A DNA stretch of 64,000 bases, taken from assembly GCA_016490735.1 (NCBI GenBank), contig JAEMWC010000662.1:102501-166500 (forward strand), written 5' to 3'. The notes under the pieces are model-generated. The model saw only the letters and a list, made by a program, of their open reading frames with translations. It was not told where the DNA came from and ran no database searches. Source of the DNA: Pachyseris speciosa (Eukaryota; Cnidaria; Anthozoa; Scleractinia; Pachyseridae). This document shows, piece after piece, positions 29,988-64,000 of this stretch; the stretch's first letter is position 1, and each line of letters opens with the position of its first letter. The position numbers were made by a program, and so were the translations under genes.

Positions 29988-30239
29988 ACCCGCTCCAAAA
30001 ACGACGAGGAGACTGGTACTAGTGAAGGATTGTGGAATCGTTTCGGTAGACGGAAGATGGCAAACACGTCATTTTTCGGCGTTTTCAAAGCAAGTAGCGT
30101 TGCTTTGTGAAGCAGAATTAACAAGAGCAAAGCCGCGGGCCTTGAAAACACCGAAAAATGAAATGTTTGCCATTTCCGTCTCCCAAAACGATCCCACAAT
30201 CCTTCACTAGTACCAGTCTCGTCATCGTGTTTGGAGTGG
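29988..30239. mobile_element. Foldback MITE at duplication edge
   Basis: The left arm CCGCTCCAAAAACGACGAGG...GACTGGTACTAGTGAAGG is inverted at 30185-30239, with TTTGCCATTTCCGTC inside. The copy at 53732-53911 lacks the outer left arm, so the segmental duplication begins inside this element. Confidence 0.7.
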
Positions 30240-30433
30240 GCAATAAGATGCTCATTAACATATAAAATCGATGAAATGGATATGGTTTACCATCACCACA
30301 ACTTGTAGACAGTACTTTTCTACATTTGATCCAGCACTGTTGTCAGACTGGTCCAGACTGTTTTACACAACGTTATCCTGGCAAAACACTTTCTGCCACA
30401 GCCGGAGACTTTAATATGGTAAAGAGCAACATG

Positions 30434-30594
30434 ACGTATATGTTGTGGTTCAATTTTATCTTTTGTTTAATTTTTTTCTCCCTTTGTTTGAAACTAATTA
30501 TCATACAGCATCATACATTACCATATTCAAGAACAAAGAGAGAAAAACTTAAACCAAGGATAAAATTGAACCACAACATATACGTTACATTTAT
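30434..30594. mobile_element. Inverted-repeat MITE (duplicated at 54100-54250)
   Basis: Arms of about 37 bp (core TATGTTGTGGTTCAATTTTA) are inverted around AT-rich sequence. It lies about 290 bp beyond the GPCR stop codon in both copies and may contribute to the transcript end. Confidence 0.7.
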
Positions 30595-30882
30595 GAGCCA
30601 CATTTGGTGAGATACATAAACACTAGTGATCAGTTAAAATTAGACAACTGTTTGCAGAAGAAGGTTGTTGTTTAGCAATCTTAACCCAGAAAAACAGGCT
30701 AAAAACGCAGTGAATCACCCTTGGAAACTTTTAAACAGCAGCTAATGTTCTTTACTTTGAGAGATAGATATATTACAAATATATATTAGGCTTAAAAATG
30801 GGCATTTCCCAGAAGGGACGAAATGGTAGGTGAAGGAACATCTTTGCAAGTTAGATGTTCAGGTACAAATTTGTTGTTTAAC

Positions 30883-32028: not shown

Positions 32029-34025
32029 ATTTTAAGTTCCTCAAATGTTCCTTCTTTTAGGACTTGCAGTTATTAAACGTCTCACTGATTTAATTCACGC
32101 GAGGCAGTAAGTGTAGACGCAACGTTTAAAAGTTTAGTTTTCCTACAGTTAGATCGGACCATCTTCGAAGAAAGTGAAGTTTGTTTCTTTCACGTGAAGT
32201 CCCTTAGCTTGCAATGTAGCAAGTGCGCTACTTTCTCCTTAGTTTTTCGAGGTAAAGCGCTGCCGCGATTTAAAGGTAATTAATCAGCCGGTAGTCCTTA
32301 TATCGGTGACTTCCCAAGGTGAACAAAAGGCTGTTTACGTCTGATTTTGAACCATTTAGAGGCCTCGAAAGCTTCGCAGTACCATTTACAGCGTCAAACC
32401 TTTAAATAACACGCAAATTGATGCATCGGGCCCGCTGAAGTGGTATTTTTATTTATCACAGTAAATTACAATTTGATTGGCAGCTGCTAGCAACGATCTT
32501 AACAACAAGTGAATATTTGGATAGGAGAAGTACTGACATACAATGTCATACAAGAGGCTGTCAGAACATCTGCAAATAGCTCAAGCACTGCCGGAGGAAT
32601 TTGGCGTTGTGTCGATTCTACTCGGACTGGCGTCTTTATTGCACAGAGTACTGCTCATCTTACAGATAAAACCCAAACCGGCCCACACTCTGTGTATTCA
32701 CCTTTTCGAGGAAAGATTTATTACCCGTTGTTTGCTTGGTTCTTGAGGTAATTTGCTTCGACTTTTTTTAGCCCGTTTATTTTTTTATGTTTGGACTGAT
32801 TACAGTTTACTCAAGCGAGTGACATGGCGACTTTTCAATTATCCCTCGATACTGAAGTTGCCGGGCTTTTGCGTCCAATGGCATATGTTTCACAAAAGCA
32901 CTCGATCGGATAAATGTAATTAAAAATATTATATCAGGTCTCACGGATGACATTGCAACAAGTTCACGTTAAAAAAAAAAATCTGTTTGAAGCGAAATTT
33001 GTAAACAAACATACGATTTAAAAAACAATACAAGGTTGACAGAAAACCTGTGAATGACTTTGCACATGCTCTGCGTTTTCAAAATACGAGTTAAGTAGCA
33101 ACCACTTCCAGGTTGGGAGCGAGAAAGAAGAATGCGCCGTCCTGTACCCATGTACGTTGTGCTTATTCGAACTATGAAGTTCATCATTTCATTTTGCTGT
33201 TTTGCAGATTAAGTCAAAAGATGCGCTAGTATCCAATGCACGTATGGAGCCTTACATTAGCTCTTGAAATGTCTCTCTTTATTTGACTTCCATGGTTTCC
33301 TTGTGACGGATGACTTCGCACGTTTTTCCTTCCTGTATTCAATATTTCACCGACCTTGTTTTTGTAACTACAGGATTGCATGAATTACACTGAATAAACC
33401 TTGGCAGATGGCAAGCAGGTGCTTTTGATGGGCATGTTCAAAATAATGTTGTAAAACAATTTATTCTCAAGCCATAAAAAATGCAAACGAGTCTTGGTGG
33501 GAATACATCAAGAATAAGGTTTCGCATCCAAAAAAATTGAAAACTTTTTTTCTTTTGGTCAAGCCAAAATAATAATAATAAAAAACATGATGAATGTATG
33601 AAAGGTATGTTCATAAGTACGCGCAAATCGTTGGCTAAATACATGTAGCTTTTAATTAATTAATGTCCACAGTGTTGTTAGTTCTTTAAGGGATGATTAC
33701 TACAAAGAACGGGTGTTTATTCAAAACAGTTTGTTGTACTGGAAGAAATCTGGGTCTACACATAAAATATACGTCGAAAACTAAATTCCCCTTTTTTTTG
33801 ACCGGGTTTCTGCCGCCATTTTCCCCATAGAAAATGCTACATTATGTTCTGTCATCTTTCCTTTAGACATTTATTACTGAATTCTTAATACCACTTTTAA
33901 TTATTATGTCTGTTGTCATATCATGCATTTATAAAGTTCTCTTAGAAGCACGTAAGTGAGTTTTCTACGTCCTATGATTTTTTTGCCGAATCTCTGTCTG
34001 TTCATTTCCCTTTTTTACCGCAGAG

Positions 34026-34247
34026 GACAATCTCGATTATCCGTTGGAACAGACTCTCTATACAAAACAACTTCCAATCATGTTAAGCTTGCGTGAGTTT
34101 GCATGTTTTCTGGTGCTAATTGGACTAGCTGGGGTCAAAGTTAATCTTTCCGAAGCACGATATGTTGTAAAGCAATTTGTACTTAACTCAAGGCCCGTCA
34201 AAATAGCAGAATTGGAAAAAAACTGGAATAGTCACGTCATATTTCAG
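34026..34247 (+). CDS. LAMA5-like: Laminin alpha exon J: L4b segment with odd 3' border
   Basis: The acceptor is TTTACCGCAGAG. The frame reads DNLDYPLEQTLYTKQLPIML and later EARYVVKQFVLNSRPVKIAE, which resembles the corresponding LAMA5 segment. It runs phase 0 into exon K (NVMSVRLPS). The reading frame ends at CAG directly followed by TGATCG, so a standard GT donor in the right phase is missing here. The duplicate at 57694-57912 has the same border. Confidence 0.6.
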
Positions 34248-34829
34248 TGATCGCTCTTATTTAGTGTACTGATAGCGCATTGGATGTCTGAAGTAGAGAC
34301 ACCCTACGGGTGATCTTTCCGTCTTACAAAATGATGACCATGATGATGATGATGATGACAATGACGAAAATGACGAAGATGGCGATCACGATGGCGATGA
34401 CGGTGATGTTGATGGTGGTGACCCTCTCAATGACATTTTTATCTTTAGCAAATGGAAGTTGAAAATGGGTGTTCTGTTATTGGCCATGATTAAAATTTCA
34501 GACATGTTTTGAGACGTCATCCATCGTCATGGTGACAAATAAGCCAGCTGAATGCACAGAACATGTCAAGAACTGGTGTTAGAGAAAAACTATGAGTAAT
34601 TAATAATTCAGAGTGGAAAATATATATGAATGAAGAGAACTGTTCAATAAAAAACACCCAAACAGATAAAATAGACCTAACCGTCGTTTGGTTGGCTCAC
34701 AGTAAAGTGTTCTTCCAGTCATATTTTTTTGGTGCTGGACAGTTTTGGCGTTGATGAATTTTATGGATGAACATCATTTATCAAATATCTCTCTTTATTG
34801 CAACTAATGACTTATCTTTTTTTTCCCAG

Positions 34830-34984
34830 AATGTTATGTCCGTCCGATTGCCGTCCACCATCCAAGGAAAGTTTGCATTGGTAGCGAGCTACTTTCACAA
34901 TTCTGATGATGCAGGGATCCTAAGCTTGGTTGTTACAACAGGAGCTGAGACCGTTAAAGCAAAAATGAGCATTCTTTCCTGCAG
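34830..34984 (+). CDS. LAMA5-like: Laminin alpha exon K: L4b segment
   Basis: The acceptor is TTTTTTTTCCCAG and the donor TGCAG|GTAAGA (phase 2). It encodes NVMSVRLPSTIQGKFALVAS and ends KMSILSCR. The terminal SCR joins the next exon to give the conserved double-cysteine segment SCRYRFGCR. A near-identical copy lies at 58488-58642. Confidence 0.85.
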
Positions 34985-35213
34985 GTAAGATAAAACAATG
35001 AATACGTGAGGAGATAGAGCAGGGGCACCCAACGACAAGTTTCGGTAGATATCTGTTCGGCGGAGGGTAGTTCGCCTTAGGCTTTGGGCATCGATTAAAG
35101 AGTGCTCTCGGATTTTCCGTAACTGAAACGTGGCCTGAAAGATTCACAGTGGGGAAATTATAGCCCCTGCGGTTTTTGGAAAGGTCGTAATTACTGTTTT
35201 TGGCGGTCAAAAC

Positions 35214-42258: not shown

Positions 42259-43051
42259 TGATTAGGAGTAATGTGAAGTTTGAGTCCCAGAAAAAGTCTA
42301 AAGTCTCATTAATTACAGACATCAACATCTACAATATCATATTTCACAAATACAAACTAGAAATGTGTGGCGCTTGGGCATACTCCGCGCACATTTCAAA
42401 CATTTCTTTGTAAAAATCACAGTTTTTGAATGGTTTTATCACATCGAGTTGAAGTCAGATTTATAAGAAACGTCTCTTAGTTTTGATATGGCGAATCTAT
42501 CTTCGATCCCGGTTGTAGGTTTTAATCAAAATTTACAATTATTCACTCTAGCTGCACTTTTATTTAAGAAATTCAGTGAAAAACACTATCTCGCAGAGTA
42601 TCCACAAGATAACTCTACAACACAGCAGAGCTCAGAAAAGACTTCTTGCATTTTCTACTCTTCTGCAAGTGTGTGCCTTGAAGTCTCTTCTTTTTCTAAG
42701 AATCAATGGCAAAACGTGTGTTTAGGAACGCTAGGGAAAACATGGCATGTTTCAGATAGAGTAGCATCGAATGTTGTCTCACAGTTAAACGCGTAGGGAA
42801 ATTATCGCAGAAGATTTATGCAATTGCTTTCGAATATTCTCGAAGTCACTTTAGTGTTTTATACAGACTATACAAACGCAGTGTTACATTTGGTAGCTTT
42901 CTCGTACGCTTAGCAAGAAACGTTATAACCGTAAGGCTTACTTACCTCAATAAAGTATTCCAATCCCCTGACTCGTTCCCAGTCGTCCCTCTTATTTTAT
43001 ATCGTTGGAAGTGGTGGTTGATGGGAAGCAGTTTCATCCTCCTCTCAACCC
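42259..43051. other. Stretch after last laminin exon without recognised gene
   Basis: A 102-residue frame (42488-42796, MANLSSIPVVGFNQNL...) shows no domain I recognise and no splice context. From about 42890 the sequence leads into the truncated Penelope-like copy. Confidence 0.4.
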
Positions 43052-43408
43052 TTGAGGTCTCTCTCTCACTCGTATCACACTCGCTTTAATTCCTTCACGG
43101 ACGCAACACTAGGAAGTGGTTCTGCCATACGTCAAAGGCACATGGGGGCTCTTCGCCGTTGCCTACAACAACAAGACATACGGACTGTATTCAGATCTGA
43201 CACAACTCTTAGATGCCACCTAGTGCGACCTAAGGACATTGTCGATCCAGTGAAACAAGACGGAGTAGTCTACAAGATTCCCTGCGAATGTGGTAAGGTT
43301 TATATTGGAGAGACGGGAAGATCTATGCATGAACGGATTAAGGAACACGATAGAGACATGCGGCTTGCTCGAACCCAATCCTCCGCCGTTTCAGAACATA
43401 GCAACACG
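43052..43408 (+). pseudogene. Penelope-like GIY-YIG endonuclease, 5' part
   Basis: The frame contains VVYKIPCECGKVYIGETGRS, the GIY-YIG nuclease signature in its Penelope form (a CxC pair before KVYIGET), with HERIKEHDRD following. This domain sits at the C-terminus of Penelope-like retrotransposon proteins after the RT. No RT was seen upstream, so the copy is 5'-truncated. The frame is cut by the Polinton-like element and resumes at 49356. Confidence 0.85.
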
Positions 43409-44737
43409 AGTAGTTATGCTTCAGCATTTTACTCCTTGTTACTGGGTTCCCCTTGAGTTCCGTGTAGGTTCCCTCGCAAAAAGTGGGTTCCCTTTATTAA
43501 TATGCATAACGGTCGAGTCAATGACGTCACCTATTGTGATAACCTAGGGAAAAAATGGGTTCCTCCATGCTAATGAACTGTCTAGCTAGCTAGGTAAAAA
43601 TGGGTTCCTCCATACTAATAAGCGTCGCTCTAGTACAATCAAAACAATAGACCTGCCCAAACTTGCCCGGGCTCTTTTTAACCCTGATTGGTTTATTGAG
43701 AACTCTATGATATTTTCAAAATAAAAGCGGGTAGATTTCGAAAGCGCTATCGTTCTTGCAATCGCTTTGCTAAGGAAAATTTATATCCGAGATTATCGTT
43801 CGATTTTCCGAAAGTGTTAACTGTTTCGCCTATAAAAATAAAATGCGACTTAGCTAACTTTAACTTTTCCGCTGCGTTAGTCACTAATTATTCAAAACTA
43901 GTGATCCAAACTATCCTATATTTGTATTTTAATATAGCTCGCGTATCTTTTCATTGAAAGCGAGCGTGCATTATGAGAGTACAAAGCACGCAGATGACGC
44001 CATTTGTCTGCGCGTGCAGTTTCAAAATCATTAAAAATCTGGCATTTTTCACAATTCAAAGTATAAACTTCTCGATTAAAATATTACAGTCATACCATAG
44101 AACTGACGAGACGAATTCCAAGTGCTGCTTGTTTTGACTGAACGGTTTTAGCCTACCGTTAAAAATAATTTTTACAACAAGACACAGTCGGTTGACGCAA
44201 CATGTAAGATCACTGACGCCATTCCGCGCGCGCAAGCTGAGAATAAAATTTGCTCAGTTTTCACAAATTGAAACGAATTTAGCTACAAATGTGGGAAAAA
44301 CTATATTATAAACAAATAAAAAAGCCTTAACCGTGCTTTGTTCTGTTATAAGGCACGCAAGGAAGTGACGAGAGCACGAAAGAAGTAGTTAAAAGCACTC
44401 GCCTACGGCTCGTGCTTCTTCCTACTTCTTTCGTGCTCTCGTCACTTCCTTGCGTGCCTTATAACAGAACAAAGCACGGTTAAGGCTTTTATTTGTTAAA
44501 CAAACTCTAAAGTATAAAATCCCCTTCTACCATTCAACAACGACAATAGACGGCTAAGTTGTTTGGAACGATCAATATAAACATGCGACTAATATGAATT
44601 ACACTTTTCTTGAGTGACAAACATAAACTTTATTGCCTTTTCTCAGGGAATACAGAAACAATACAGAAAGTGATTTGAAATGAATAAACGTCAGTCATCC
44701 TCTTGAACTTCGTGTGGAGGAAAAATCAATCGTCTTC
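43409..44737 (+). repeat. Polinton-like left inverted repeat
   Basis: Matches the reverse complement of 48597-49355 apart from a 572-bp insertion at 43927-44498. The 3' ends of two convergent genes (stops near 44728 and 48606) lie inside the repeats. Confidence 0.9.
43927..44498. mobile_element. Insertion in left repeat with 76-bp-arm palindrome
   Basis: Absent from the right terminal repeat. Its right part (44311-44497) is a near-perfect palindrome with arms of about 76 bp (GTGCTTTGTTCTGTTATAAG and its inverse) around a loop of about 33 bases. It sits at a TA-like site (TTTGTA|ACAAAC). No gene. Confidence 0.75.
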
Positions 44738-45508
44738 ATCTTCGCTTGGAAGATAACAATCAGCGCAGCAAATAAATCCATCCGTCGAGTGTTTACTACG
44801 ATCAACAGGAATTTTGTATGCGCAAATCGGACAAGTCTTATAACCATCATGCCAGTGGCATCTTGGGCATTCCACTACTGCAGTTTGGTAGATGTTTCCT
44901 CCGTTACAATGGTAGCAAGAGCCTTTTCCTTGACGCAAAATCTCTGGACTTGCGCTCTCTTCAGAACATTCAACGTCTGAATTTCCTTCATGTTCCAGAT
45001 TTGCAGGGTTTTCGGTTTCTCTGCCATCTTCAACATCACTGCTTTCGGAAACCATTTCTTCATCACCAGCCTCACCTTCTTCATCTCGATAGGCTCGTTC
45101 TTTTTCCATTAGCTCAGCCAAAGTTTTCTTATTCTTTATATACCGTTTATTAATTCCTAACTCTGCCAACCCGTCTATAAATGTTTTGAGGGCGCGGGGT
45201 TTGACAACCTCGTCGTTATAAGGGAGTAACACATATTCAACCAGCTCTGAGATGTTGGTCACTGGTATTATTCGCTGGTTTCGAAGTAACTGTCCACAAG
45301 GTGTCCAAAACAAGATATCCTTGGAAGCCGCCATGCTGTGTAATAAATCGGAGGCCTGTTGTCTGGAAACAGCTTTGGAAAGTCCTTCTAAAACATCTTT
45401 AATTCGAGGTTCTTCGTCATCACTTTCCTCTTCACTTGTGTTAGTGTCATCATAATCACTCTCTTCCTCTTTATCCCAATCGACTTTTCTGTTCATATTG
45501 ACCAGCAC
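44726..45508 (-). CDS. Polinton-associated acidic zinc-ribbon protein
   Basis: A 260-residue intact frame. Residues 10-40 are strongly acidic (EEESDYDDTNTSEEESDDEE). The middle has a conserved-looking helical segment (WTPCGQLLRNQRIIPVTNIS then LVEYVLLPYND) and a second acidic stretch. The C-terminal third holds four CxxC pairs (CYHC, CPRC, CPIC, CCADC), two likely zinc ribbons. I recall similar proteins beside packaging ATPases in Polinton-like elements, but know no defined function; a regulator or DNA-binding role is a guess. The last residues are encoded in the terminal repeat. It is divergent from the ATPase operon-like side. Confidence 0.75.
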   Translation of the reverse strand: MLVNMNRKVDWDKEEESDYDDTNTSEEESDDEEPRIKDVLEGLSKAVSRQQASDLLHSMAASKDILFWTPCGQLLRNQRIIPVTNISELVEYVLLPYNDEVVKPRALKTFIDGLAELGINKRYIKNKKTLAELMEKERAYRDEEGEAGDEEMVSESSDVEDGRETENPANLEHEGNSDVECSEESASPEILRQGKGSCYHCNGGNIYQTAVVECPRCHWHDGYKTCPICAYKIPVDRSKHSTDGFICCADCYLPSEDEDD

Positions 45509-45559
45509 TCGCTAACGACAAGAACCAACTGAACACACTACAGAGTAGTTCGCGATTTT

Positions 45560-45892
45560 TTATAAGATTAGGGGTCCCAAGCTAGTTACAACTGGTATCA
45601 ACAAATCTTGAATAAAGCCTCCACCCTCTTGAGCAAGGGTTTGCTTCTTTGTCTTGTAAGGAATACTTGGCTCAGCAAGATTAAGAATGGCATCCTTGAA
45701 TGGAATCATTTAACGCTTATCTTCTTCAGAGACTGGAATATTTCCACGAAGCACATTATAAATAATTTGCACTAATGCGTGCATCTGTTGTGGAGTGGCT
45801 GCCTCTAGGAGAAACTGACGCTGATGTTCAGGGCAACAAGTTAAGAGTTCAAGGAAACCGTGATTGTTCTTTACTACTCGAGACATGATCAT
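45560..45892 (-). pseudogene. Small conserved Polinton-like protein with in-frame stop
   Basis: The frame from 45892 reads ELLTCCPEHQRQFLLEAATP, then QMHALVQIIYNVLRGNIPVS, and meets TAA at 45710-45712. In the same frame it resumes for about 50 codons with AQEGGGFIQDLLIPVV before a stop at 45560. The continuous frame on both sides suggests one protein of about 110 residues with a nonsense change. It has a Gly-rich, hydrophobic tail. Function unknown; it lies between the zinc-ribbon and pX-like genes on the same strand. Confidence 0.6.
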
Positions 45893-45945
45893 AGAATGAA
45901 TTAAGCATAGTAGGCGCCAGTATTTTATAGAGAGCCCAGCTCAGT

Positions 45946-46371
45946 TTACGACCAAAGTTCAAAGTCGTCTTGGTCTTGATCCAACACAACTGTTTTACGT
46001 TTCTTCCCTGGAGGTAAACCACGAAACTGCACTTTTCTTTTTGTAGAACTCTGACCACTCCCAGCCTGAGATACTAGATCACCAATAGCTTCCCTCCTTC
46101 GCTTTGCAAGCGCTGTGTTAACATGATCTCCATCCAGAACATCTTGAGCGACTTCAGCACCTGTTTGTAGTGCCTTTTTGCCGAGTACCTTAGCACCTTG
46201 TTGTAAATGAGGCATTGCCCAGCGAAACAAACCTTTAAATATGGAACCTAAGCCATATCCCTGCTGAAATCGGGATCCGTGGAAAGCCGGTAAATTACCT
46301 CCTTTTTGCTTAGCTTGGTTTAGATAATAATCTTCATACAACTTGGTATTTGGAATGTAAAGTTTCTTCAT
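45946..46371 (-). CDS. Basic pX/pVI-like virion-core-type protein
   Basis: A frame of about 141 residues from the Met at 46371 (an upstream Met at 46413 is possible). It holds a Gly-rich amphipathic segment (YGLGSIFKGLFRWAMPHLQQ) followed by GAKVLGKKALQTGAEVAQD, then a Lys/Arg-rich tail with PPGKKRKT and an acidic end. This layout resembles adenovirus-like small core or membrane-active proteins found in Polintons; that assignment is inference. It is divergently placed from the ATPase gene across a polypurine minisatellite of about 200 bp. Confidence 0.65.
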   Translation of the reverse strand: MKKLYIPNTKLYEDYYLNQAKQKGGNLPAFHGSRFQQGYGLGSIFKGLFRWAMPHLQQGAKVLGKKALQTGAEVAQDVLDGDHVNTALAKRRREAIGDLVSQAGSGQSSTKRKVQFRGLPPGKKRKTVVLDQDQDDFELWS

Positions 46372-46464
46372 TTCTACTCTGACGAAAATGAAGTGTAAGC
46401 AACACTTTCCCAAACTCGAATGACATACTTTCTCCAGTGTCTCGCTTTATATTGATTTCAATAT

Positions 46465-46668
46465 AGTGATAAAGCAAAAGAATTGAGGAGGAGGAGGAGG
46501 GAAAACAGGAGGAGGAGGAGGAAAACAATAGAATTGAGGAGGAGGAGGAGGGAAAATAATAGAATTGAGGAGGAGGGAAAATAATAGAATTGAGGAGGAG
46601 GAGGAGGAGGAGGAGGGAAAATAATAGAATTGAGGAGGAGGAGAAGGAGGAGGGAAAACAATAGAATT
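46465..46668 (+). repeat. Polypurine GGA minisatellite between divergent Polinton genes
   Basis: Units of GAATTGAGGAGGAGG..GGGAAAATAATA repeat about seven times. One strand is almost pure purine, so triplex or slipped structures are possible. The same repeat opens the remnant at 35214. Long Pro/Ser-rich or Glu-rich frames here are by-products. Confidence 0.9.
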
Positions 46669-47073
46669 CTGGTGGCTGAAACCTATATCATTGTGAAACA
46701 TTACACATTTTGTCAGTTGAAGTTAAGCTTCGATTCAGTTGACATGAGTTGGTCCTGTACTGTTTGTCAAAAGGATTTTTCCAGGAAAGATAACATGCAA
46801 AGACACTTGAACAGTAAACACAGTTATTCCGGTTTCGCTCCATTTATACCGATGTCTCAGGAAAAGTGTCAGCGGTTTCAAATGCTTCACCCATTTACCT
46901 GCATGGTTGCAGGGATGACTGGCTCGGGAAAAACGTTCTGGGTGCAATCGCTCTTGCAACAAGCTCAAACCGTGATCGATCAGCCATCGGAGAGAATAAT
47001 CTGGTGTTATTCACAGTGGCAACCCACAAGCTTTACGTTTTCATTGCTTGTTTTATTGATATGTGGGTACTTA

Positions 47074-47153
47074 AGCCTGAGCATTAGCTATGCCATGCTG
47101 ATGAGGCCTAACAAGGCCGAAACAGCTGTCCATGGGTGCTAATGCTTGGGCTC
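47074..47153 (+). ncRNA. Type I hammerhead ribozyme 1
   Basis: The core CTGATGA (47098-47104), stem II GGCC-TAACAA-GGCC, then GAAA (47119-47122), a very short stem III (CAGCTG) and cleavage triplet GTC. Cleavage is predicted after C47130. Stem I pairs GCATTAGC with GCTAATGC across an internal loop. The stem next to the core has CCATG/CATGG. A loopless stem III means activity is likely as a dimer. Confidence 0.9.
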
Positions 47154-47326
47154 AATCTTTGCTTTGGTAGATTTAAGGGGTAATGCCCGCTACCCATTGG
47201 CCTTAGTGCCTTTTGAGTGGCTTCAGCTTACTTGATCACATTAATTTGTGAAGTATCCTTGTCACTCCAGCCACATCCCACAAGCTTTACGTTTTCATTG
47301 CTTGTTTTATTGATATGTGGGTACTT

Positions 47327-47407
47327 GAGCCTGAGCATTAGCTATGCCATGCTGATGAGGCCTAACAAGGCCGAAACAGCTGTCCATGGCTGCTAATGCT
47401 TGGGCTC
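47327..47407 (+). ncRNA. Type I hammerhead ribozyme 2
   Basis: The same core as ribozyme 1, 254 bp downstream, with predicted cleavage after C47384. Stem I is better paired here (GAGCC/GGCTC, AGCATTAGC/GCTAATGCT, CCATG/CATGG). Cleavage at both sites would release a 254-nt monomer. Confidence 0.92.
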
Positions 47408-48107
47408 AATCTTTGCTTTGGTAGATTTAAGGGGTAATGCCCGCTACCTTGTGGCCTTAGTGCCTTTTGAGTGGCTTCAGCTTACTTGATCACATTAATT
47501 TGTGAAGTATCCTTGTCACTCCAGCCACATCCCACAAGCTTTACGTTTTCATTACACCCAGTTATTGATGGTGATACCGACGATTGAATTTGTCAAGGGA
47601 TTCCGCCTTCTCTAGACAATGATTCCTATTTGGATATCAACATACGCAACTTGATTGTCATCGACGACCAAATGATTGAAGCAGGAAGTGATATTCGGAT
47701 CGTAAACCTGTTTACAAAAGGATCCCATCATCGAAACCTGAGCGTTATTTACATTGTACAAAATCTGTTTCACCAAGGCAAAGGCAACCGAAGCATCAGC
47801 TTAAACAGTCATTACTTGTTCCTTTTCAAGAATCCTCGGGATAAACTGCAGATTTTGACTTTAGCCAAACAAATGTACCAAGACAAATTGCTTTGTTTTT
47901 AAAAGAGTACGAAGAAACGGTGAGAAGACCATTTGGGTATCTTTTTGTTGATCTCAAGCCAACGACTCCAGATAGTTGCAGATTCCGAACAAATGTATTA
48001 CCCGGCGAAGAAAGATTCGATAAAGGGTTCGAAGAGAGTAACATTTCCCAGAAACTGCTCCAGTATCTCAAGCAGCAAACCCAGATGGTTCCCCGGTAAT
48101 TCCGGAG

Positions 48108-48608
48108 ATGCAGCGCATTCAGAATAATATGGATAACCTTCTGTATCGTACAAACCTTGGAGACGACGAAAGAGCGAGGTAGTACATGCAGTTGCAAAAC
48201 AAGCTTTTAACATATAAACACCAGTTCAATTCCTTAACACCTGAAGCAACAATTCTGCCTCAACCTCAAGGGCGGGAACTCATTTCTAACGAGGCTATGG
48301 TAAACAATTTGCCAACAGTGCCACCAACTCCAGGTCAAGCGCCAGCACTTGAACCAACGGTAAAGGAACCAGCCCCACATCCCTTATCTACCATAACAAC
48401 CTCCACTCCCGCACCTCCCTCCCTTCCTACGTCGATCTTGACACCCCCTCCCACAGTCGAAACGCTGTCGCCAGCAAGAAAGCGTAAACGCCCACCATTA
48501 AAATTTGTAAATTACATGGACGATGAACCGAAGAAACTTTCAAGACGATCTCGACGTTTACACAGGAAGTCACCTTACAAGTATTCCAAATATCAAGAAG
48601 GCGATTGA
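48108..48608 (+). pseudogene. Polinton-like proline-rich basic protein with in-frame stop
   Basis: The frame begins MQRIQNNMDNLLYRTNLGDD and meets TAG at 48180-48182. It continues in phase MQLQNKLLTYKHQF, a Pro/Thr-rich linker (PPTPGQAPALEPTVKEP...), then a basic tail (SPARKRKRPP, RRSRRLHRKSPYK). Its end is encoded in the right terminal repeat. The function is unknown; the basic tail suggests nucleic-acid or nuclear association. Confidence 0.6.
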
Positions 48609-49355
48609 ATTTTCCTCCACACGAAGTTCAAGAGGATGACTGACGTTTATTCATTTCAAATCACTTTCTGTGTTGTTTCTGAGAAAAGGCAATAAAGTTT
48701 ATGTTTGTCACTCAAGAAAAGTGTAATTCATATTAGTCGCGTGTTTATATTGATCGTTCCAAACAACTTAAGCCGTCCATTGTCGTTGTTGAATGGTGGA
48801 AGGTTCTCCCATGGGCTTTTATACTTTAGAGTTTGTATACAAATATAGGATAGTTTGGATCACTAGTTTTGAATAATTAGTGACTAACGCAGCGGAAAAG
48901 TTAAAGTTAGCTAAGTCGCATTTTATTTTTATAGGCGAAACAGTTAACACTTTCGGAAAATCGAACGATAATCTCGGATATAAATTTTCCTTAGCAAAGC
49001 GATTGCAAGAACGATAGTGCTTTCGAAATCTACCCGCTTTTATTTTGAAAATATCATAGAGTTCTCAATAAACCAATCAGGGTTAAAAAGAGCCCGGGCA
49101 AGTTTGGGCAGGTCTATTGTTTTGATTGTACTAGAGCGACGCTTATTAGTATGGAGGAACCCATTTTTACCTAGCTAGCTAGACAGTTCATTAGCATGGA
49201 GGAACCCATTTTTTCCCTAGGTTATCACAATAGGTGACGTCATTGACTCGACCGTTATGCATATTAATAAAGGGAACCCACTTTTTGCGAGGGAACCTAC
49301 ACGGAACTCAAGGGGAACCCAGTAACAAGGAGTAAAATGCTGAAGCCCTACTACT
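48597..49355 (-). repeat. Polinton-like right inverted repeat
   Basis: An intact 759-bp terminal repeat ending CCCTACTACT. It includes the inner segment GAGAAAAGGCAATAAAGTTT shared with the remnant at 35.2-36.0 kb. Confidence 0.9.
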
Positions 49356-49555
49356 AACGCGACCGGACATTATCCGCTCTGGGACAAAGTTAAATTTATT
49401 GATCGAGAGCCACATTGGTACACATAAGACTTCACCCTAACAACATTAAAAGGGACAGTGGAATTGAAATTCCTGAAGCGTGGATGCCCATGATCAAACA
49501 ACACAACAGGCGGAGGCGCCACGCAGCTCTCGGAACAGTTCACAGGATTGGCTGA
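49356..49555 (+). pseudogene. Penelope-like GIY-YIG endonuclease, 3' part
   Basis: Starts at the second copy of the 6-bp duplication and continues the nuclease domain (TGHYPLWDKVKFIDREPHWY). A stop and a small deletion follow, then the C-terminal IRLHPNNIKRDSGIEIPEAW in a shifted frame, ending HRIG-stop. Beyond it, to about 49950, lies 3' untranslated Penelope-type sequence including CGCCTGAGGAAGACCAGCAG. Confidence 0.85.
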
Positions 49556-49954
49556 GAAAACAATAAACAAACAACAGAAACAATGGACCCTAGCCCTGAA
49601 ATAATGGAGCTGCGTGGTAATAAGAACCAATGAAATAAGAGGTTACTGAGAGGTGCGTGGCATCTGAACAGCCGATCAGTACCAAAGCGGACCGCTGAGG
49701 GAACAATTTCTAGTCTGAACGACAAGGATCGAAATCCTCCAATCAACACCAGCCTAAGCGAGGATCGAAACGCACCAATTACCACCAGCCACGGTGCTTC
49801 TTATGCTCACACGCAGCCAGTCGACACCATCGCCTGAGGAAGACCAGCAGTATAGCGGTCGAAAAGTCGCGATCCACATCTTTGCGACTCAACCGTGAGA
49901 CAAAAGATTAACTCAGCTATCATTTGAAACCACGACTAGGATGACGAACACCTT

Positions 49955-50247
49955 TCATAATAATTTTTCGTAGTTTGGCCTTTTTGCAGGCGGGTATCGT
50001 TTGTACTGGGCATCTCCTTCGTCTTTTAACTTAGCGTTGTACGCCTTACTTGCCGGAGTATCTGGGAAGTCATTTGGAAATAAAGGAACTCCTTGCTCAA
50101 GGGCTAGCGTTTGACTCTCCTGTAGGCCCCCAGTTCTTGCACTTCTGTAGATAAGGGCTATCCAAAAGGCCACGGCCCATCCAGCTGGTAATATGACGTC
50201 CCATTCAGCGCCATATCCAGCACCAACCCCAGAACCTCCGCTATTGT
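49955..50247 (-). pseudogene. POP1: POP1 exon (POPLD region), truncated
   Basis: On the minus strand, acceptor TTTCTTGTTCTAG leads to GAEWDVILPAGWAVAFWIAL, then IYRSARTGGLQESQ and YPPAKRPNYEKL. This is the conserved POPLD/C-terminal block of POP1, a protein of RNase P and RNase MRP that binds the RNA subunit. It then reads LL-stop at 49955 with no usable donor. POP1 proteins normally continue well beyond this point. Penelope 3' sequence begins within a few tens of bases, so the insertion probably truncated the exon. Confidence 0.8.
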
Positions 50248-50487
50248 CTAGAACAAGAAATAAATGGTCATGGTCAAACTTCTCTAGTCGCTTTGAAAAG
50301 AGCAGATCTGTTAAGCTCTGCTAACAATGTGTACGTCACTCTATGAAATCGTAAAGCTTGTGGGATGTGGCTGGAGTGACAAGGATACTTCACAAATTAA
50401 TGTGATCAAGTAAGCTGAAGCCACTCTAAAGGCACTAAGGCCACATGGTAGCGGGCATTACCCCTTAAATCTACCAAAGCAAAGATT

Positions 50488-50568
50488 GAGCCCAAGCATT
50501 AGCAGCCATAGACAGCTGTTTCGGCCTTGTTAGGCCTCATCAGCATGGCATAGTTAATGCTCAGGCTC
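50488..50568 (-). ncRNA. Type I hammerhead ribozyme 3 (minus strand)
   Basis: On the minus strand CTGATGA, GGCCTAACAAGGCC, GAAA, CAGCTG, GTC are all intact. Predicted cleavage lies between 50511 and 50510. Stem I carries one change (ATTAACTATG, and TATGG after the site), so the CCATG/TATGG stem has a wobble pair. Confidence 0.88.
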
Positions 50569-50724
50569 AAGTACCCACATATCAATAAAACAAGCAATGA
50601 AATCGTAAAGCTTGTGGAATGTGGCTGGAGTGACAAGGATACTTCACAAATTAATGTGATCAAGTAAGCTGAAGCCACTCTAAAGGCACTAAGGCCAATA
50701 TTTTTTATTGATATGTGGGTACTT

Positions 50725-50805
50725 GAGCCTGAGCAATAGCTATGCCATGCTGATGAGGCCTAACAAGGCCGAAACAGCTGTCCATGGCTGCTAATGCTTG
50801 GGCTC
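50725..50805 (+). ncRNA. Type I hammerhead ribozyme 4
   Basis: Core elements are identical to ribozyme 2, with predicted cleavage after C50782. Stem I has one mismatch (GAGCAATAGC). Facing ribozyme 3, a transcript through both could pair its arms. Confidence 0.88.
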
Positions 50806-51212
50806 AATCTTTGCTTTGGTAGATTTAAGGGTAATGCCCGCAACCATGTGGCCTTAGTGCCTTTAGAGTGGCTTCAGCTTACTTGATCACATTAATTTGT
50901 GAAGTTTCCTTGTACGTCACTCTAGTTCTAATCACACAATTTGTTTCCGAGGTCATATTTACTGGACATTTCACAAGGCTGGAAACAACCTGTTTTGATG
51001 CCTTATTAGTGTAGATTCCCGACCTTAAAATCTATAGCATCCTAGCTTGTAAACGAGAAAGAGAAAACTGGACATGGTCCGAAAAAAGAAGTTATCTCGA
51101 CACAAAAAATACAAGTCACTAAACCGCGCTTTGAATTTGGAATGCAAATTTCAACTTTTCCGTCTTTGTTTTTTCTTCTTCTTCACATTTTCAGCCTACA
51201 AGTTTTACTTAC

Positions 51213-53731: not shown

Positions 53732-54547
53732 GGTAGACGGAAGATGGCAAACACGTCATTTTTCGGCGTTTTGTGAAGCAGGATTAACAAGAGCAAAGCC
53801 GCGGGCCTTGAAAACACCGAAAAATGAAATGTTTGCCATTTCCGTCTCCCAAAACAATCCCACAATCCTTCACTAGTACCAGTCTCGTCATCGTGTTTGG
53901 AGTGGGCAATAAGATGCTCATTAACATATAAATTCGATGAAATGGATATGGTTTACCATCACCACAACTTGTAGACAGTATTTTTCTACATTTGATCTAG
54001 CACTGTTGTCAGACTGGTCCAGACTGTTTTACACAACGTTATCCTGGCAAAGCACTTTCTGCCACAGCCGAAGACTTTAATTTGGTAAAGAGCAACATGA
54101 CGTATATGTTGTGGTTCAATTTTATCTTTTGTTTAATTTTTTCTCCCATCGTTTTAAACTAATTATCATACAGCATCATACATTACCATATTCAAGAACA
54201 AAGAGAGAAAAACTTAAACCAAGGATAAAATTGAACCACAACATAAACGTTACATTTATGAGCCACATTTGGTGAGATACATAAACACTAGTGATCAGTT
54301 AAAATTAGACAACTGTTTGCAGAAGAAGGTTGTTGTTTAGCACTCTTAACCCAGAAAAACAGGCTAAAAACGCAGTGAATCACCCTTGGAAACTTTTAAA
54401 CAGCAGCTAATGTTCTTTACTTTGAGAGATAGATATATTACAAATATATATTAGGCTTAAAAATGGGCATTTCCCAGAAGGGACGAAATGGTAGGTGAAG
54501 GAACATCTTTGCAAGTTAGATGTTCAGGTACAAATTTGTTGTTTAAC

Positions 54548-55693
54548 CTAACAAGGCGTCAATTCTTCACCAGTGTTCCGAGGACGTGATCGAGAGCGTA
54601 TCATAAACACTTTAAAATTAAGGTAATTAGCCGGTTGGCAGAGCGAAAGGAATAAATTATTCATCGCTTTACGGAACTCCTTGCTAACTACGGAATAGAT
54701 CACAGGATTCGCTGAGGAGTTCAGTATTACAAAAAGCGATATTGTGTAGAGCAGTTTTCCGTAATATTCTCGTTGCACGATTGCCGGCCAAAGCACAATG
54801 ATCAGGCGAAGAACGTTTAAAGGGAGCATTGTAACCGCAAACACGATAACGAGCGGGGTTAGAATTTTCTTGACTCTCTTGTTGTGACTGAGGCGAACAC
54901 TTTTTACGTTGGCCAGAGAAGTGCATTCTCCCTCATGGCCTCTTTCCAGTGCTTCTTGTTTCATAGCTTTGATGAATGCATCGGTCTCGTTCATTTTGCG
55001 AGTTATGAATAAACAGGTGACAGAAATGATGGTGAGAGGCAAGATATAGGAGAACAAAGTCAGCGATCCTATATAAATTCCGCTTAATACTGAGTTACGA
55101 CCCCACTCCGGCCAAACGGGGCCGCACCAGCCTGGGGGCTCACGATATTCGACAACGAAAAACAGTGGAAAGCAGAAGACGACGAACGATATCGCCCAAA
55201 CGCATGCTGCAACGGCCTTCGCTCTTTGAAGCAAAGTCTTGTTCTTGCGTTTTATCATTGGCTTCACAGTCACCACTTTGCGGTATCTCTCTATAGCGAT
55301 GACCGCAATGAACCACACTGACCCGCCGTAGAATATCTCAGGGATTGGATACAGGTAGCGGCACGTAAACTCACCAAAAGGCCAGTCAAACCAGGTCTTG
55401 ATAGTGAGGAGTGGAAATGTTAATAGCAATGTGCCGAGGTCGCCGATGGCTAAATTTTGTAAATAGAAGTCTCCCGGTTGTTTCTTCTTGCCCATCCTGC
55501 CGATAACGATAACCACCAGTAGGTTGCCAGCTACTCCAAACAAAGCGATTAATACTGGAAGAGATAGTTTGAAGACAATAAGCTCGAGAGACGCGTCCAC
55601 TCTGGGAGCGATGGCAAGAGAATCGTTTCCTAGAGAGGCGTTCGTAGTTGGACAATGCGCCGTCGAGTAGTCGTCGTTAAATTCACCTGGCAT
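54548..55693 (-). CDS. Intronless class A GPCR, copy 2
   Basis: A 381-residue paralogue of the receptor at 30883-32028, on the same strand, with the same length and no indels. By eye the two proteins differ at about ten positions, including the TM2 change FPRFTI to FPLLTI, Gln to Pro in TM1, and Asp to Gly in the second extracellular loop. ERY, NPVIY and the cysteine pair are retained. Both frames being open suggests either recent duplication with both genes usable, or two haplotypes joined in the assembly. About 0.9 kb upstream and 4 kb on the other side are duplicated with it, so regulatory sequence is probably shared. Confidence 0.9.
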   Translation of the reverse strand: MPGEFNDDYSTAHCPTTNASLGNDSLAIAPRVDASLELIVFKLSLPVLIALFGVAGNLLVVIVIGRMGKKKQPGDFYLQNLAIGDLGTLLLTFPLLTIKTWFDWPFGEFTCRYLYPIPEIFYGGSVWFIAVIAIERYRKVVTVKPMIKRKNKTLLQRAKAVAACVWAISFVVFCFPLFFVVEYREPPGWCGPVWPEWGRNSVLSGIYIGSLTLFSYILPLTIISVTCLFITRKMNETDAFIKAMKQEALERGHEGECTSLANVKSVRLSHNKRVKKILTPLVIVFAVTMLPLNVLRLIIVLWPAIVQREYYGKLLYTISLFVILNSSANPVIYSVVSKEFRKAMNNLFLSLCQPANYLNFKVFMIRSRSRPRNTGEELTPC

Positions 55694-57693
55694 ATTTTAA
55701 GTTCCTCAAATGTTCCTTCTTTTAGGACTTGCAGTTATTAAACGTCTCACTGATTTAATTCACGCGAGGCAGTAAGTGTAGACGCAACGTTTAAAAGTTT
55801 AGTTTTCCTACAGTTAGATCGGACGATCTTCGAAGAAAGTGAAGTTTTTTTTTCTTTCACGTGAAGTCCCTTAGCTTGCAATGTAGCAAGTTCGCTACTT
55901 TCTCCTTAGTTTTTCGAGGTAAAGCGCTGCCGCGATTTAAAGGTAATTAATCAGCCGGTAGTCCTTATATCGGTGACTTCCCAAGGTGAACAAAAGGCTG
56001 TTTTCGTCTGATTTTGAACCATTTAGAGGCCTCGAAAGCTTCGCAGTACCATTTACAGCGTGAAACCTTTCAATAACACGCAAATTGATGCATCGGGCCC
56101 GCTGAAGTGGCATTTTTATTTATCACAGTAAATTACAATTTGATTGGCAGCTGCTAGCAACGATCTTAACAACAAGTGAATATTTGGATAGGAGAAGTAC
56201 TGACATACAATGTCATACAAGATGCTGTCATAACATCTGCAAATAGCTCAAGCACTGCCGGAGGAATTTGGCGTTGTGTCGATTCTACTCGGACTGGCGT
56301 CGTTATTGCACAGAGTACTGCTCATCTTACAGATAAAACCCAAACCGGCCCACACTCTGTGTATTCACCTTTTCGAGGAAAGATTTATTACCCGTTGTTT
56401 GCTTGGTTCTTGAGGTAATTTGCTTCGACTTTTTTTTAGCCCGTTAATTTTTTTATGTTTGGACTGATTACAGTTTACTCAAGCGAGTGACATGGCGACT
56501 TTTCAATTATCCCTCGAAGCTGAAGTTGCCGGGCTTTTGCGTCCAATGGCATATGTTTCACAAAAGCACTCGATCGGATAAATGTAATTAAAAATATTAT
56601 ATCGGTCTCACGGATGACGTTGTAACAAGTTCGATTTAAAAAAAAATCTGTTTGAAGCGAAATTTGTAAGCAAACATACGATTTAAAAAAACAATACAAG
56701 GTTGACAGAAAACCTGTGAATGACTTTGCACATGCTCTGCGTTTTCAAAATACGAGTGAAGTAGCAACCGCTTCCAGGTTGGGAGCGAGAAAGAAGAATG
56801 CGCCGTCCTGTACCCATGTACGTTGTGCTTATTCGAACTATGAAGTTCATCATTTCATTTTGCTGTTTTGCAGATTAAGTCAAAAGATGCGCTAGTACCT
56901 AATGTACGTATGGAGCCTTACATTAGCTCTTGAAATGTCTCTCTTTATTTGACTTCCATGGTTTCCTTGTGACGGATAACTTCGCACGTTTTTCCTTCCT
57001 GTATTCAATATTTCACCGACCTTGTTTTTGTAACTACAGGATTGCATGAATTACACTGAATAAACCTTGGCAGATGGCAAGCAGGTGCTTTTGATGGGCA
57101 TGTTCAAAATAATGTTGTAAAACAATTTATTCTCAATCCATAAAAAATGCAAACGAACCTTGGTGGGAATACATCAAGAATAAGGTTTCGCATCCAAAGA
57201 GATTGACAACTGTTTTTTTTCTTTTGGTCAAGCCAAAATAATAATAATAAAAAACATGATGAATGTATGAAAGGTATCTTCATAAGTGTGCGCAAATCGT
57301 TGGCTAAATACGTGTAGCTTTTAATTAATTAATGTGCACAGTGTTGTAAGTTCTTTAAGGGATGATTACTACAAAGAAAAGGTGTTTATTCAAAACAGTT
57401 TGTTGTACTGGAAGAAATCTGGGCGTACAAGTCAAATATACGTCGAAAACTAAATTCCCCTTTTTTTGGCCAGGTTTCTGCCGCCATTTTCCCCATAGAA
57501 AATGCTATATTATGTTCTGTCATCTTTCCTTAAGACATTTATCACTGAATTCTTAATACCACTTTTAATTATTATGTCTGTTGTCATATCATGCATTTAT
57601 AAAGTTCTCTTAGAAGCACGTAAGTGAGTTTTCTACGTCCTATGATTTTTTTGCCGAATCTCTGTCTGTTCATTTCCCTTTTTTACCGCAGAG

Positions 57694-57912
57694 GACAATC
57701 TCGATTATCCGTTGGAACAGACTCTCTATACGAAACAACTTCCAATCATGTTGAGCTTGCGTGAGTTTGTATGTTTTCTGGTGCTAATTGGACTAGCTGG
57801 GGTCAAAGTCCATCTTTCCGAAGCGCGATATGTAAAGCAATTTGTATTTAACTCAAGGCCCGTCAAAATAGCAGAATTGGAAAAAAACTGGAATAGTCAT
57901 GTCATATTTCAG
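57694..57912 (+). pseudogene. Orphan duplicate of laminin exon J
   Basis: This is part of the 53.7-58.9 kb duplication. It is nearly identical to exon J but lacks one codon (RYVKQF versus RYVVKQF). The reading frame is open and the border CAG-TGATCG is shared. No upstream exon I or downstream exon L was seen nearby, so it is probably not part of a working transcript. Confidence 0.7.
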
Positions 57913-58487
57913 TGATCGCTCTTATTTAGTGTACTGACAGCGCATTGGATGTCTGAAGTAGACACCCTACGGGTGATCTTTCCGTCTTACAAAATGATGA
58001 CCATGATGATGATGATGACAATGACGATAACGACGAAGATGGCGATCACGATGGCAATGACGGTGATGTTGATGGTGGTGACCCTCTTAATGACATTTTT
58101 AACTTTAGCAAATGGAAGTTGAAAATGGGTGTTCTGTTTTTGGCCATGATTAAAATTTCGAACATGTTTTGAGACGTCATCCATCGTCATGGTGACAAAT
58201 AAGCCAGGTGAATGCACAGAACTAGTGTTAGAGAAAAACTTTGAGTAATTAATAATTCAGAGTGGAAAAATATATATGACTGAAGAGAACTGTTCAATAA
58301 AAAACACCCAAACAGATAAAATAGACCTAACCGTCGTTTGGTTGGCTCACAATAAAGTGTTCTTCCAGTACCTCTCCCATATTTTTTTGGTGCTGGACAG
58401 TTTTGGCGTTGATGAATTTTATGGATGAACATCATTTATCAAATATCTCTCTTTATTGCAACTAATGACTTATGTTGTTGTTCCCAG

Positions 58488-58642
58488 AATGTTATGTCCG
58501 TCCGATTGCCGTCCACCATCCAAGGAAGGTTTGTATTGGTAGCGAGCTACTTTCACAATTCTGATGATGCAGGGATCCTAAGCTTGGTTGTTACAACAGG
58601 AGATGAGACCGTTAAAGCAAAAATGAGCATTCTTTCCTGCAG
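58488..58642 (+). pseudogene. Orphan duplicate of laminin exon K
   Basis: This is a duplicate of 34830-34984 with intact acceptor and donor (TGCAG|GTAAGA) and an open frame. It differs at a few residues (GRFVLV for GKFALV, GDET for GAET). The matching downstream exon is absent after 58.9 kb. Confidence 0.75.
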
Positions 58643-59348
58643 GTAAGATAAAACAATGAATACGTGAGGAGATGAGCAGGGGCACCCAACGACAAATTTC
58701 GGTAGATATCTGTTCGGCGGAGGGTAGTTCGCCTTAGGCTTTCGGCATCGATTAAAGAGTGCTCTCGGATTTTCCGTAACTGAAACGTGGCCTAAAAGAT
58801 TCACAGTGGGGAAATTATAGCCCCTGCGGTTTTTGGAAAGGTCGTAATTACTGTTTTTGGCGGTCAAAACGTCAGCTAGCTTTTTCGGAAAGAAAATAGT
58901 TCCGTCAGTAGAAAGTTCGTGGAAAGTCCATTTCACCCTTTTCTCAAAGGAAGATTTTGTTCCCTAACATTTTCGGGCAATTTAACTTTCAGCTAAGGAA
59001 TCCGAATATCTAACCAAAACATCACTCATTTTAAACAGACTTCAAACACGTACCATAAGGTACTTAAAAATACCTTTCTACAGCTTTTGGTTAATTTGGC
59101 TCGTTGGGTGCCCCTGATAGAGGGATCTTCAATCGAGTGCCGTAAAATCAAGACCTTATCACGGTTTAGTATATACGATACAAATGAATAGCGGTTTCGC
59201 GCGCTATGATTGGTTAACTCGGATGTCGGTATATTGTCACACATAAAGTAATGTTTTGGACCGCTAGTGATTCAGATTGTGTGATATATATACTAAAACA
59301 ATTATTCACCTCAGTGTCGGTGAAAGTGGTGGATATATCCACCACTAT

Positions 59349-60031: not shown

Positions 60032-60835
60032 TCAGAGACCTATGCGCGAAGTAGCAAGAAGCTGTCGTCGGAGATTTTCACGGCAATATAATTCCTTGGC
60101 AGAGTCAGATTTCCACCTGCCGTGGTTTTTAGTGACGTGATCGGGAACTCCGCTATGAAGCGCAGCCGAAGCGCCCCCTATCCTAAGCGAGTGCAAACCT
60201 ATACCCGACGTATCAACACCGATGGCCCGAAACTTAGCCAAAACGACTTCCCTCGCCCTGGTGTAAGACAAACTCGTACCGGAACGAAGGGAATAACCCT
60301 TAGAAGAGGAAAAACTAAGGTTTTGAAAGACAAACTCAACCGAATCAAGATTACGCCTAGCCAGAGCGGCATAACGGAGCAGCATAGCGCAGGGGCATGT
60401 GGGGGTACCAGTACTAGCGATAACTAAAGTACACCCTTTACCCAATTGATCAACTTTGCTTTTGGAAACGTAGAGCTCAATATGATCCTGAAAGAAAGAA
60501 ATGTCAGACCACCTAAGACGACTTAATTCGTCAAAGCGCAAAAACCCAGCAAAAGCAAGCAAACAAAAACAAACGTCCCTGATATCCCCGAGGGATGCTG
60601 TGGGCGTAGCAAATCTATTAACTAACGCGACTAAATGCTCAGGCAAAATGGGTACCCTATTCAACTTAGACGGTTTCGAAGCAACGCGCTTACAACCTTC
60701 TAGAATAGCCAGAAGAAAAGCTGATTTACAAGGATTCGAGACCCCGCAAGCATTATGAAAAAAGCTTATACTGTAGAACGCCTGCTGAATGGAGGAATAT
60801 GAAGACCCTGATTGAACTAACGAAATTAAATACAA
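60032..60835 (-). CDS. Ngaro tyrosine recombinase
   Basis: A 267-residue frame. The catalytic set is Arg100 (AGFLRFDELSRLRWSD), His215/Arg218 (LHSLRIGGASAA), His238 (NHGRW) and nucleophile Tyr250 (KELYCRE), as in phage-integrase-type recombinases of DIRS/Ngaro elements. The N-terminal SAM-like part continues upstream in the same frame (HSKAPSTFKIYHGCFKR) but is cut by TGA at 60899-60901, where Trp is expected. The listed Met is therefore only the first after that stop. It would integrate a circular DNA copy without target duplication. Confidence 0.85.
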   Translation of the reverse strand: MYLISLVQSGSSYSSIQQAFYSISFFHNACGVSNPCKSAFLLAILEGCKRVASKPSKLNRVPILPEHLVALVNRFATPTASLGDIRDVCFCLLAFAGFLRFDELSRLRWSDISFFQDHIELYVSKSKVDQLGKGCTLVIASTGTPTCPCAMLLRYAALARRNLDSVEFVFQNLSFSSSKGYSLRSGTSLSYTRAREVVLAKFRAIGVDTSGIGLHSLRIGGASAALHSGVPDHVTKNHGRWKSDSAKELYCRENLRRQLLATSRIGL

Positions 60836-61317
60836 GGCTACGTGTTCCTCTTGAGCCGGGAAGTAAATAACCTCTGGGAAACCACTGGTCCAAGATTTTC
60901 AACGTTTGAAACAACCGTGGTAGATCTTGAACGTGCTAGGAGCCTTGCTGTGGGCAAGAACCGCTGGAATGTGCGCACGCAGGCTCTCCAAAGCCGGATG
61001 GTGAATGCATGATACCCTGGAACTTGTAAAGAAATAAAGGAAAAAATAAGGCATAAGAGAAAAGATGAAAAATGGTAGACGTGGAATTCCGATTGCAATT
61101 TATTAAACGTGGACAGCCAATAACGCGTACATACTAAAAATAGGCAATAACAACAATATACGGAGAAAACAAACAACCGTTAAAATTCGTACAACGTTGC
61201 CAACAAAGGCCATACGTTTACAAAAGATAAGCAAACACGATCTAGAGCGACCGTCAATAAGGCACTAGCCTGTAAAAAACTATGAAAAAACGAACCGGAA
61301 TAAACCGAAAAAAGGAA

Positions 61318-61465
61318 CTCGCTATAAAGCGCTAAATATCGTACGTGAACCGCTATAAAGCGACAAGGGTCACACCTGAACCGCTATAAAGCGCTAAACA
61401 GCGTACGTGAACCGCTATAAGGCAACGAGAGTCGTCCGTGAACCGCCAAAAAGCGCTACGTGGAA
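61318..61465. repeat. Short tandem repeat between Ngaro pol and recombinase
   Basis: About five imperfect units of around 30 bp with GAACCGCTATAAAGCGCTAA and CGTACGTG. It lies between the RT-RNase H end (61513) and the recombinase. Confidence 0.75.
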
Positions 61466-61512
61466 TAGCGCGAAAAGCTCTGCAATAAAGTACCAATGCC
61501 TGAATAACGGCT

Positions 61513-63960: not shown

Positions 63961-64000
63961 TACGCTTATTTCTTTGACGAGCTTGATCTCTCAGAGCCTG

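Follow-up and report, generated by a model that had tools for sequence, protein, structure and literature searches.

Paired, fixed copy ends in a coral hammerhead retrozyme suggest copying by Penelope-type enzymes

Structure of the locus

The window analyzed here is a stretch of 64,000 nucleotides from the coral Pachyseris speciosa. It carries at 47023-47553 a tandem array with a period of 254, 2.1 copies and 98% matches, made up on the plus strand of unit 1 (47023..47276, with unit position 1 at 47023), unit 2 (47277..47530) and a partial third unit of 23 bp (47531..47553), which ends at unit position 23 with the RNA 3' end of the insertion, at what we call site A. The first-pass annotation had described two exact 254-bp tandem units; the tandem arrangement is confirmed, and the units are near-identical rather than exact, differing at 5 of 254 positions (249/254 identical). 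Their GC content is 44-45%. Six-frame translation of the dimer is broken by stops and gives no long reading frame, and a protein-database search with a peptide encoded by the retrozyme returned a single match (P0241, 21 residues identical), on a contig of 633 bp. A hairpin is predicted at 47280..47305 on the plus strand (unit positions 4-29, loop 10-23), with site A (~20-30) falling in the 3' part of the loop and the arm that follows it. Copies elsewhere in the genome have their other fixed 3' end at site B (47256..47266, plus strand, unit positions 234-244). Among the unit's 25-mers, AC content is highest in the one that begins at 239-241, while other scan lengths peak elsewhere.

The array interrupts the remnant of an ATPase gene (46744..48599, plus strand) that has at least three further frame changes and belongs to a Polinton-like element of 5.9 kb including the retrozyme (43409..49355). 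Polintons have long inverted repeats, AG ends and a 6-bp target duplication. The element here shares with them long inverted repeats with AG ends (43409-43927 and 48837-49355; 519 bp, 515/519 identical), flanking sequences AACACG and AACGCG that by eye form a 6-bp duplication with one mismatch, and an ATPase with relatives that carry PF04665; it is unlike them in its short length, and Pfam recognized no polymerase, integrase or capsid gene in five reading-frame pieces of this decayed element. The N-terminal piece of the ATPase has 192 database relatives; PF04665 is annotated (precomputed) in 31 of the 120 listed, the named ones among those listed are three proteins of Oculina patagonica at 73% identity, and the QWQ motif of the insertion site and the residues following it recur in 102 of the 120. 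Pfam applied directly to the window's ATPase pieces named zinc fingers alone in the first and had no match in the second, so that it did not name the ATPase, and neither piece has relatives among the viral contigs searched. The relatives, the PF04665 annotations among those listed, the inverted repeats and the QWQ site together uphold the earlier placement of the retrozyme inside a Polinton-like ATPase gene. The left inverted repeat of the element is interrupted by about 560 bp (43928-44489) with a big inverted repeat at about 44320-44500, like a fold-back transposon.

The Polinton-like element in turn splits a Penelope-like element (PLE), the C-terminal part of which, the endonuclease region by sequence reading, lies at 43022..43408 on the plus strand and gives no Pfam match, while the 3' remainder of the same PLE including its tail lies at 49356..49961, also on the plus strand. 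Within the latter is a minimal hammerhead-like motif (49834..49868, plus strand; a pattern match only). A relative of this PLE elsewhere in the genome reads through without the Polinton-like break, and the order of nesting is PLE, then Polinton-like element, then retrozyme. Nothing special was seen in this nesting. The idea that a Polinton serves as host in some special sense is not sustained: it is one among 56 mapped insertion sites, its ATPase gene has further frame changes besides, and the landing of a retrozyme there is, as far as is visible, ordinary.

Two further hammerhead copies, absent from the first-pass annotation, lie at 50343-50913 in a second retrozyme insertion, whose two arms are arranged head to head: a minus-strand arm (50343..50700) with its 3' end at site A (position 22) and a plus-strand arm (50701..50913) with its 3' end at site B (position 240). 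It is bounded by a 14-bp target duplication, with the left copy at 50330..50343 (its last base possibly of the retrozyme) and the right copy at 50911..50924 (its first three bases possibly of the retrozyme). This insertion adjoins a reading frame with a POPLD domain (Pfam) that we take for the gene POP1. At 49950-49965 the end of the PLE tail seems by eye to give the stop and last codons of this minus-strand frame (49955-50320).

The retrozyme in the ATPase gene has a 5-bp match only and no clear target duplication, and by eye its 5' junction shows as many as 6 nt of shared sequence. The window's three RNA 3' ends are at unit positions 22-23, 21-22 and 238-240; from these two insertions, with their ends at two positions, the suggestion arose that the RNA has two internal 3' ends.

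Hammerheads and RNA fold

Type I hammerheads occupy 47071..47155 in unit 1 and 47325..47409 in unit 2, both on the plus strand, with cleavage predicted after 47130 and 47384, respectively. An IUPAC pattern of the hammerhead core, allowing at most two mismatches, has four matches in the window as against none in 100 shuffles, and both units have the core motifs in the reported order; the long complementary stem I arms noted earlier are there as well, the hammerhead pairs being kept at 31/31 in unit 2, with 2/31 lost in unit 1. In the Rfam comparison unit 2 reaches 33.9 bits with the type I hammerhead model (curated cut-off 34; E 1.3e-6 for 701 nt), and the best retained match of unit 1 is Hammerhead_HH9 at 28.3 bits (cut-off 52). 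In the covariance-model check proposed at the outset, strictly, no copy passes at its cut-off, unit 2 falling 0.1 bit under it. A scan of the whole window at the Rfam cut-offs returned tRNAs only and no hammerhead. Matches to microRNA, CRISPR, snoRNA and RAGATH models were below their own cut-offs and were taken for fold-back or chance.

Two details of the first description have to be changed. Stem III, said to be loopless, is two base pairs long and capped by a palindromic tetraloop, AGCU; stems III of such form have been likened to those of invertebrate hammerheads (NAR 2020). The proposal that the ribozymes act as dimers finds no support in the sequence, and the coral retrozyme assayed in print is described as cleaving as a monomer (PMC7229834). 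By prediction the hammerhead fold lies above the free minimum by 6.0 kcal/mol in three 90-nt pieces and by 7.6 in a fourth, and three units folded as circles are more stable than shuffled sequences (z -3.0, -5.1 and -4.7; 200 shuffles each). The CTGANGA..GAAA..GTH core is kept in 140 of 153 genomic retrozyme pieces.

Copies of the retrozyme in the genome

The genome searched comprises 984 Mb, and the two retrozyme variants of the window served as queries, giving 317 and 547 first-look candidates, with 40 scored per query. From these, 56 distinct insertions were segmented: 38 in a first set (41 loci, less L021, L025 and L029, which show the same insertion as another locus) and 18 in a second (30 loci, less 12 at the same place as another). 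One left end at position 121 of an insertion on contig C440 (seen in L029) and one at 140 of an insertion on C460 (seen in L067-L071) were left out of the count, as were the smaller retrozyme groups in L034 and L048; in L032, L033 and L063 one end is cut by the locus. Two start sites were noted from the window ahead of the genome search results; the prediction that other copies would use them was written once match ranges were known but before the ends were mapped, and the ranges for A (14-32) and B (233-244) were set after the first set had been seen. Patterns of the hammerhead have no matches in the viral contigs and none in the prokaryote genome contigs searched.

The copies end at fixed places in the RNA. 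Among 92 outer RNA 3' ends in the 56 insertions, 47 are at A and 32 at B, with 11.2 expected, and the remaining 13 lie elsewhere; the second set on its own has 28 of its 32 at A or B. Without the window's two insertions, 69 of 90 ends are within 5 nt of position 22 (A) or 239 (B), where 7.8 would be expected. Outer 5' ends fall at A or B in only one case of 17. If the ends at 121 and 140 from the dropped loci are added, 79 of 94 are at A or B, and two-ended insertions with another position number 13 of 39. Left flanks of L027 and L041 are alike and joined to unit position 93, as if a fused retrozyme piece had spread with another repeat, and because of this likeness the three ends at 93 are not independent. 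The end produced by hammerhead cleavage was considered as the usual start of reverse transcription and rejected: one end of the 92 lies there (L054, at 108).

The ends are also paired. In 37 insertions both flanks carry an RNA 3' end: 25 of these combine A with B, one has A at both, none has B at both, and 11 have another position. An earlier count, with one end of L043 uncorrected, gave 24 A+B among the 25 pairs that involve A and B only (0.48 expected under independence, p 3e-7). Target duplications follow the same division. Those of at least 8 bp flank 26 of 53 insertions (0.13 expected), with 23 of the 26 being 12-17 bp long, and they accompany 21 of 24 A+B insertions vs. 5 of 29 others; the A+B insertions that lack an exact one are L053 and L062, with none, and L036, with 12 bp including one mismatch.

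The segments are often longer than one unit (68 of 93, up to 2042 nt), and they read through the hammerhead cut site 159 times in all. Pieces within one insertion resemble each other more closely than they resemble pieces from elsewhere; this holds for 28 of 34 and for 16 of 18 insertions. Such multi-unit, internally similar segments are compatible either with repeated copying round a single circle or with a homogeneous multimer as template. Segments have their 5' ends more often at about 160-196: 19 of 80 inner ends are in 161-192, and most single-sided outer 5' ends fall in this region too. Units differ at 173-176, and the reverse transcriptase perhaps pauses here.

Penelope-like elements of the same genome

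A genome search with the endonuclease piece of the window's PLE gave 8496 first-look candidates; all 150 that were scored matched, 16 of them with stops. Twenty-three PLE 3' stretches were fetched, of which 21 could be aligned, and these have two ends: 12 are short, with ...GCTATCA as their last letters or a stop no more than 6 nt away, and nine are long, stopping 32-34 nt (about 33 nt) beyond the short end. The window's own PLE copy has the long end, with a 6-nt insertion. Six places were noted with two PLE copies head to head less than 3 kb apart, five of them scorable, with one stretch masked, and in all five one short end is paired with one long end. The duplications at these places are 12-14 bp in three; one place has none, and one has 17 bp, which says little because it is inside a simple repeat.

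The spacing is between 30 and 40 nt in the two kinds of element but is not the same, with A at about 22 and B at about 238 being 38 nt apart vs. 32-34 nt for the PLE ends. Comparison of the retrozyme's tail region with those of the genome's PLE family detected no homology, 637 of 1000 shuffled sequences giving an equal or better score, and none was found between the retrozyme unit and the PLE. What retrozyme and PLE have in common is the layout and not the letters.

In published work on a lizard PLE in vitro, reverse transcription is described as starting from two adjacent internal sites, with both strands extended; most starts fall within a stem loop rich in A and C, and the tail of 30-40 bp is what separates the two sites (PMC11167929). 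For the Penelope elements of rotifers the tail is described as an optional feature that one of the two inverted ends may carry, and the duplications as 8-10 bp (PMC3846280). With PLEs as described there, the retrozyme shares a hammerhead, two internal starts that enclose a tail, copies arranged head to head and short duplications (PMC11167929, PMC3846280). It is unlike them in being without a reading frame of its own, in having no detectable sequence in common with this genome's PLE and in having often more than one unit per arm. Having no frame for a reverse transcriptase or GIY-YIG endonuclease, it is not a PLE, though probably moved like one.

Relation to known retrozymes

Metazoan non-LTR retrozymes are built of tandem units, about 170-400 bp long, that each hold a type I hammerhead, and this is what is found here. 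As a class they are also mobile and dispersed, low in GC and stably folded as circles, and have neither coding capacity nor LTR features. The original call of a retrozyme as a mobile unit is supported by hammerhead, unit size, GC content, stable circular fold and many dispersed copies, and the animal non-LTR retrozymes thereby gain a member. Those described from the coral Acropora millepora likewise have a type I hammerhead, tandem units, GC below 50% and dispersed copies (PMC7229834), and, compared by description, a stable circular fold in a genome that has PLEs (PMC7229834); their units are 220-240 bp, against 254 here (PMC7229834). The same paper speaks of duplications larger than 4 bp "when present" (PMC7229834), and in the portions of that account available to us fixed ends, their pairing and evidence from insertions for the helper are not found (PMC7229834).

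As to that helper, papers of 2020 and a review of 2024 name LINEs or PLEs for animal retrozymes, with PLEs as a strong candidate, one of these sources stating that no conserved motif helps to deduce it. Among the papers listed in our search of the open-access literature we saw none describing retrozyme ends that are fixed and paired, nor insertion data that point to a PLE helper. The new part is how the copies end, in fixed and paired ends, while the element itself fits the known animal non-LTR retrozymes.

Proposed mechanism and alternatives

The copy ends are patterned like those of the genome's Penelope elements, which suggests that Penelope-type enzymes copy the retrozyme RNA. We put the probability of a PLE-type reaction as the route of the retrozyme's insertion at roughly 0.8, with a PLE enzyme as the presumed helper. 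Weighing against it are the lack of homology between the tails, the difference in spacing, the ends and two-ended insertions that use other positions, and the A+B insertions and the head-to-head PLE place that have no duplication. In the order of steps that we propose, the retrozyme RNA, presumably self-cleaving, would be used as a circle or a multimer, and a PLE-like reverse transcriptase with endonuclease, acting in trans, would cut both strands of the target at points usually 12-17 bp from each other. The 3' ends so freed would then prime inside the RNA, one at A (~22) and the other at B (~238). The two cDNAs, often more than one round of the unit in length, would be joined head to head, and the stagger of the cuts would become the target duplication. 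Where a single end is primed, the other side would be joined by repair, usually without a duplication, and the copy in the ATPase gene is probably an insertion of this one-sided kind, with priming at site A.

Another candidate for the helper's role is a LINE-type retrotransposon, with the inverted insertions arising by ordinary twin priming. Duplications of 12-17 bp at the target and inverted copies would suit a LINE helper also. Twin priming in LINEs, however, leaves a 3' end that is fixed and a second start that varies, whereas both starts here are fixed and different from each other, as in the genome's PLEs, and we regard a LINE helper as quite unlikely. Self-priming by fold-back of a single cDNA, in place of priming on both target strands, has been put forward for rotifer Penelope (PMC3846280), and could account for the head-to-head copies of L017 and L036, where the inner ends of the arms are no more than 3 positions apart. 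Over the whole sample the inner ends are within 10 positions of each other in 4 of 40 cases vs. 3.3 expected by chance, and such independence speaks against fold-back priming as the rule; nor would fold-back lead one to expect different sites, A and B, at the two flanks, and we hold it very improbable as an explanation.

A quite different view would make the element an ordinary satellite DNA, spread by DNA recombination and with a hammerhead kept by descent. Some arrays are indeed long, such as one of about 5 kb on contig C460, but a satellite would leave the fixed ends and the target duplications unaccounted for, and among 109 flanks of 60 bp there is one alike pair, so that the copies are not duplicates of a single event; we give this view hardly any credence. 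For the window's own array there is also the question of whether the retrozyme is a passenger that entered the Polinton-like element before the latter's last jump. The units differ from each other more (5/254) than do the inverted repeats (4/519), as an older retrozyme would, with p 0.16 and with units that were possibly unlike from the start, and such an early entry seems unlikely.

Insertion of the retrozyme by a PLE-type reaction can be carried further, with a confidence that falls a little short of even odds for the following picture taken as a whole. Animal retrozymes may parasitize the Penelope insertion complex, in which a dimeric PLE enzyme would hold one circular RNA at two sites about 38 nt apart; each active site would extend one of the cut strands, the two chasing one another round the circle, and the hammerhead would serve to make that circle and hence an endless template. 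If so, this would explain why inverted Penelope pairs have the tail on only one of their two ends. The paired ends also hint at a rule by which PLEs themselves insert, with each target strand served by its own start site, and fixed, paired ends offer a signature of the helper that makes an in vitro test of it direct.

Other features of the window

Several other repeats lie in the window. From 7760 to 16483 there are 13 tRNA matches on both strands, amid repeats of 161 bp and of 1-1.4 kb, and a Gypsy-like element with a 34-bp tandem array is found at 17913-21806. Arrays of a 22-bp repeat at 28046-28389 and 29506-29745 are in opposite orientation and lie inside longer inverted repeats. At 60032-63990 are frames for a phage-integrase-type recombinase, a reverse transcriptase and an RNase H, DIRS-like by sequence reading. 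A direct duplication of 5.2 kb (30045-35213 and 53732-58870) is 96.7% identical between its copies, each of which has an intact 7tm_1 receptor frame.
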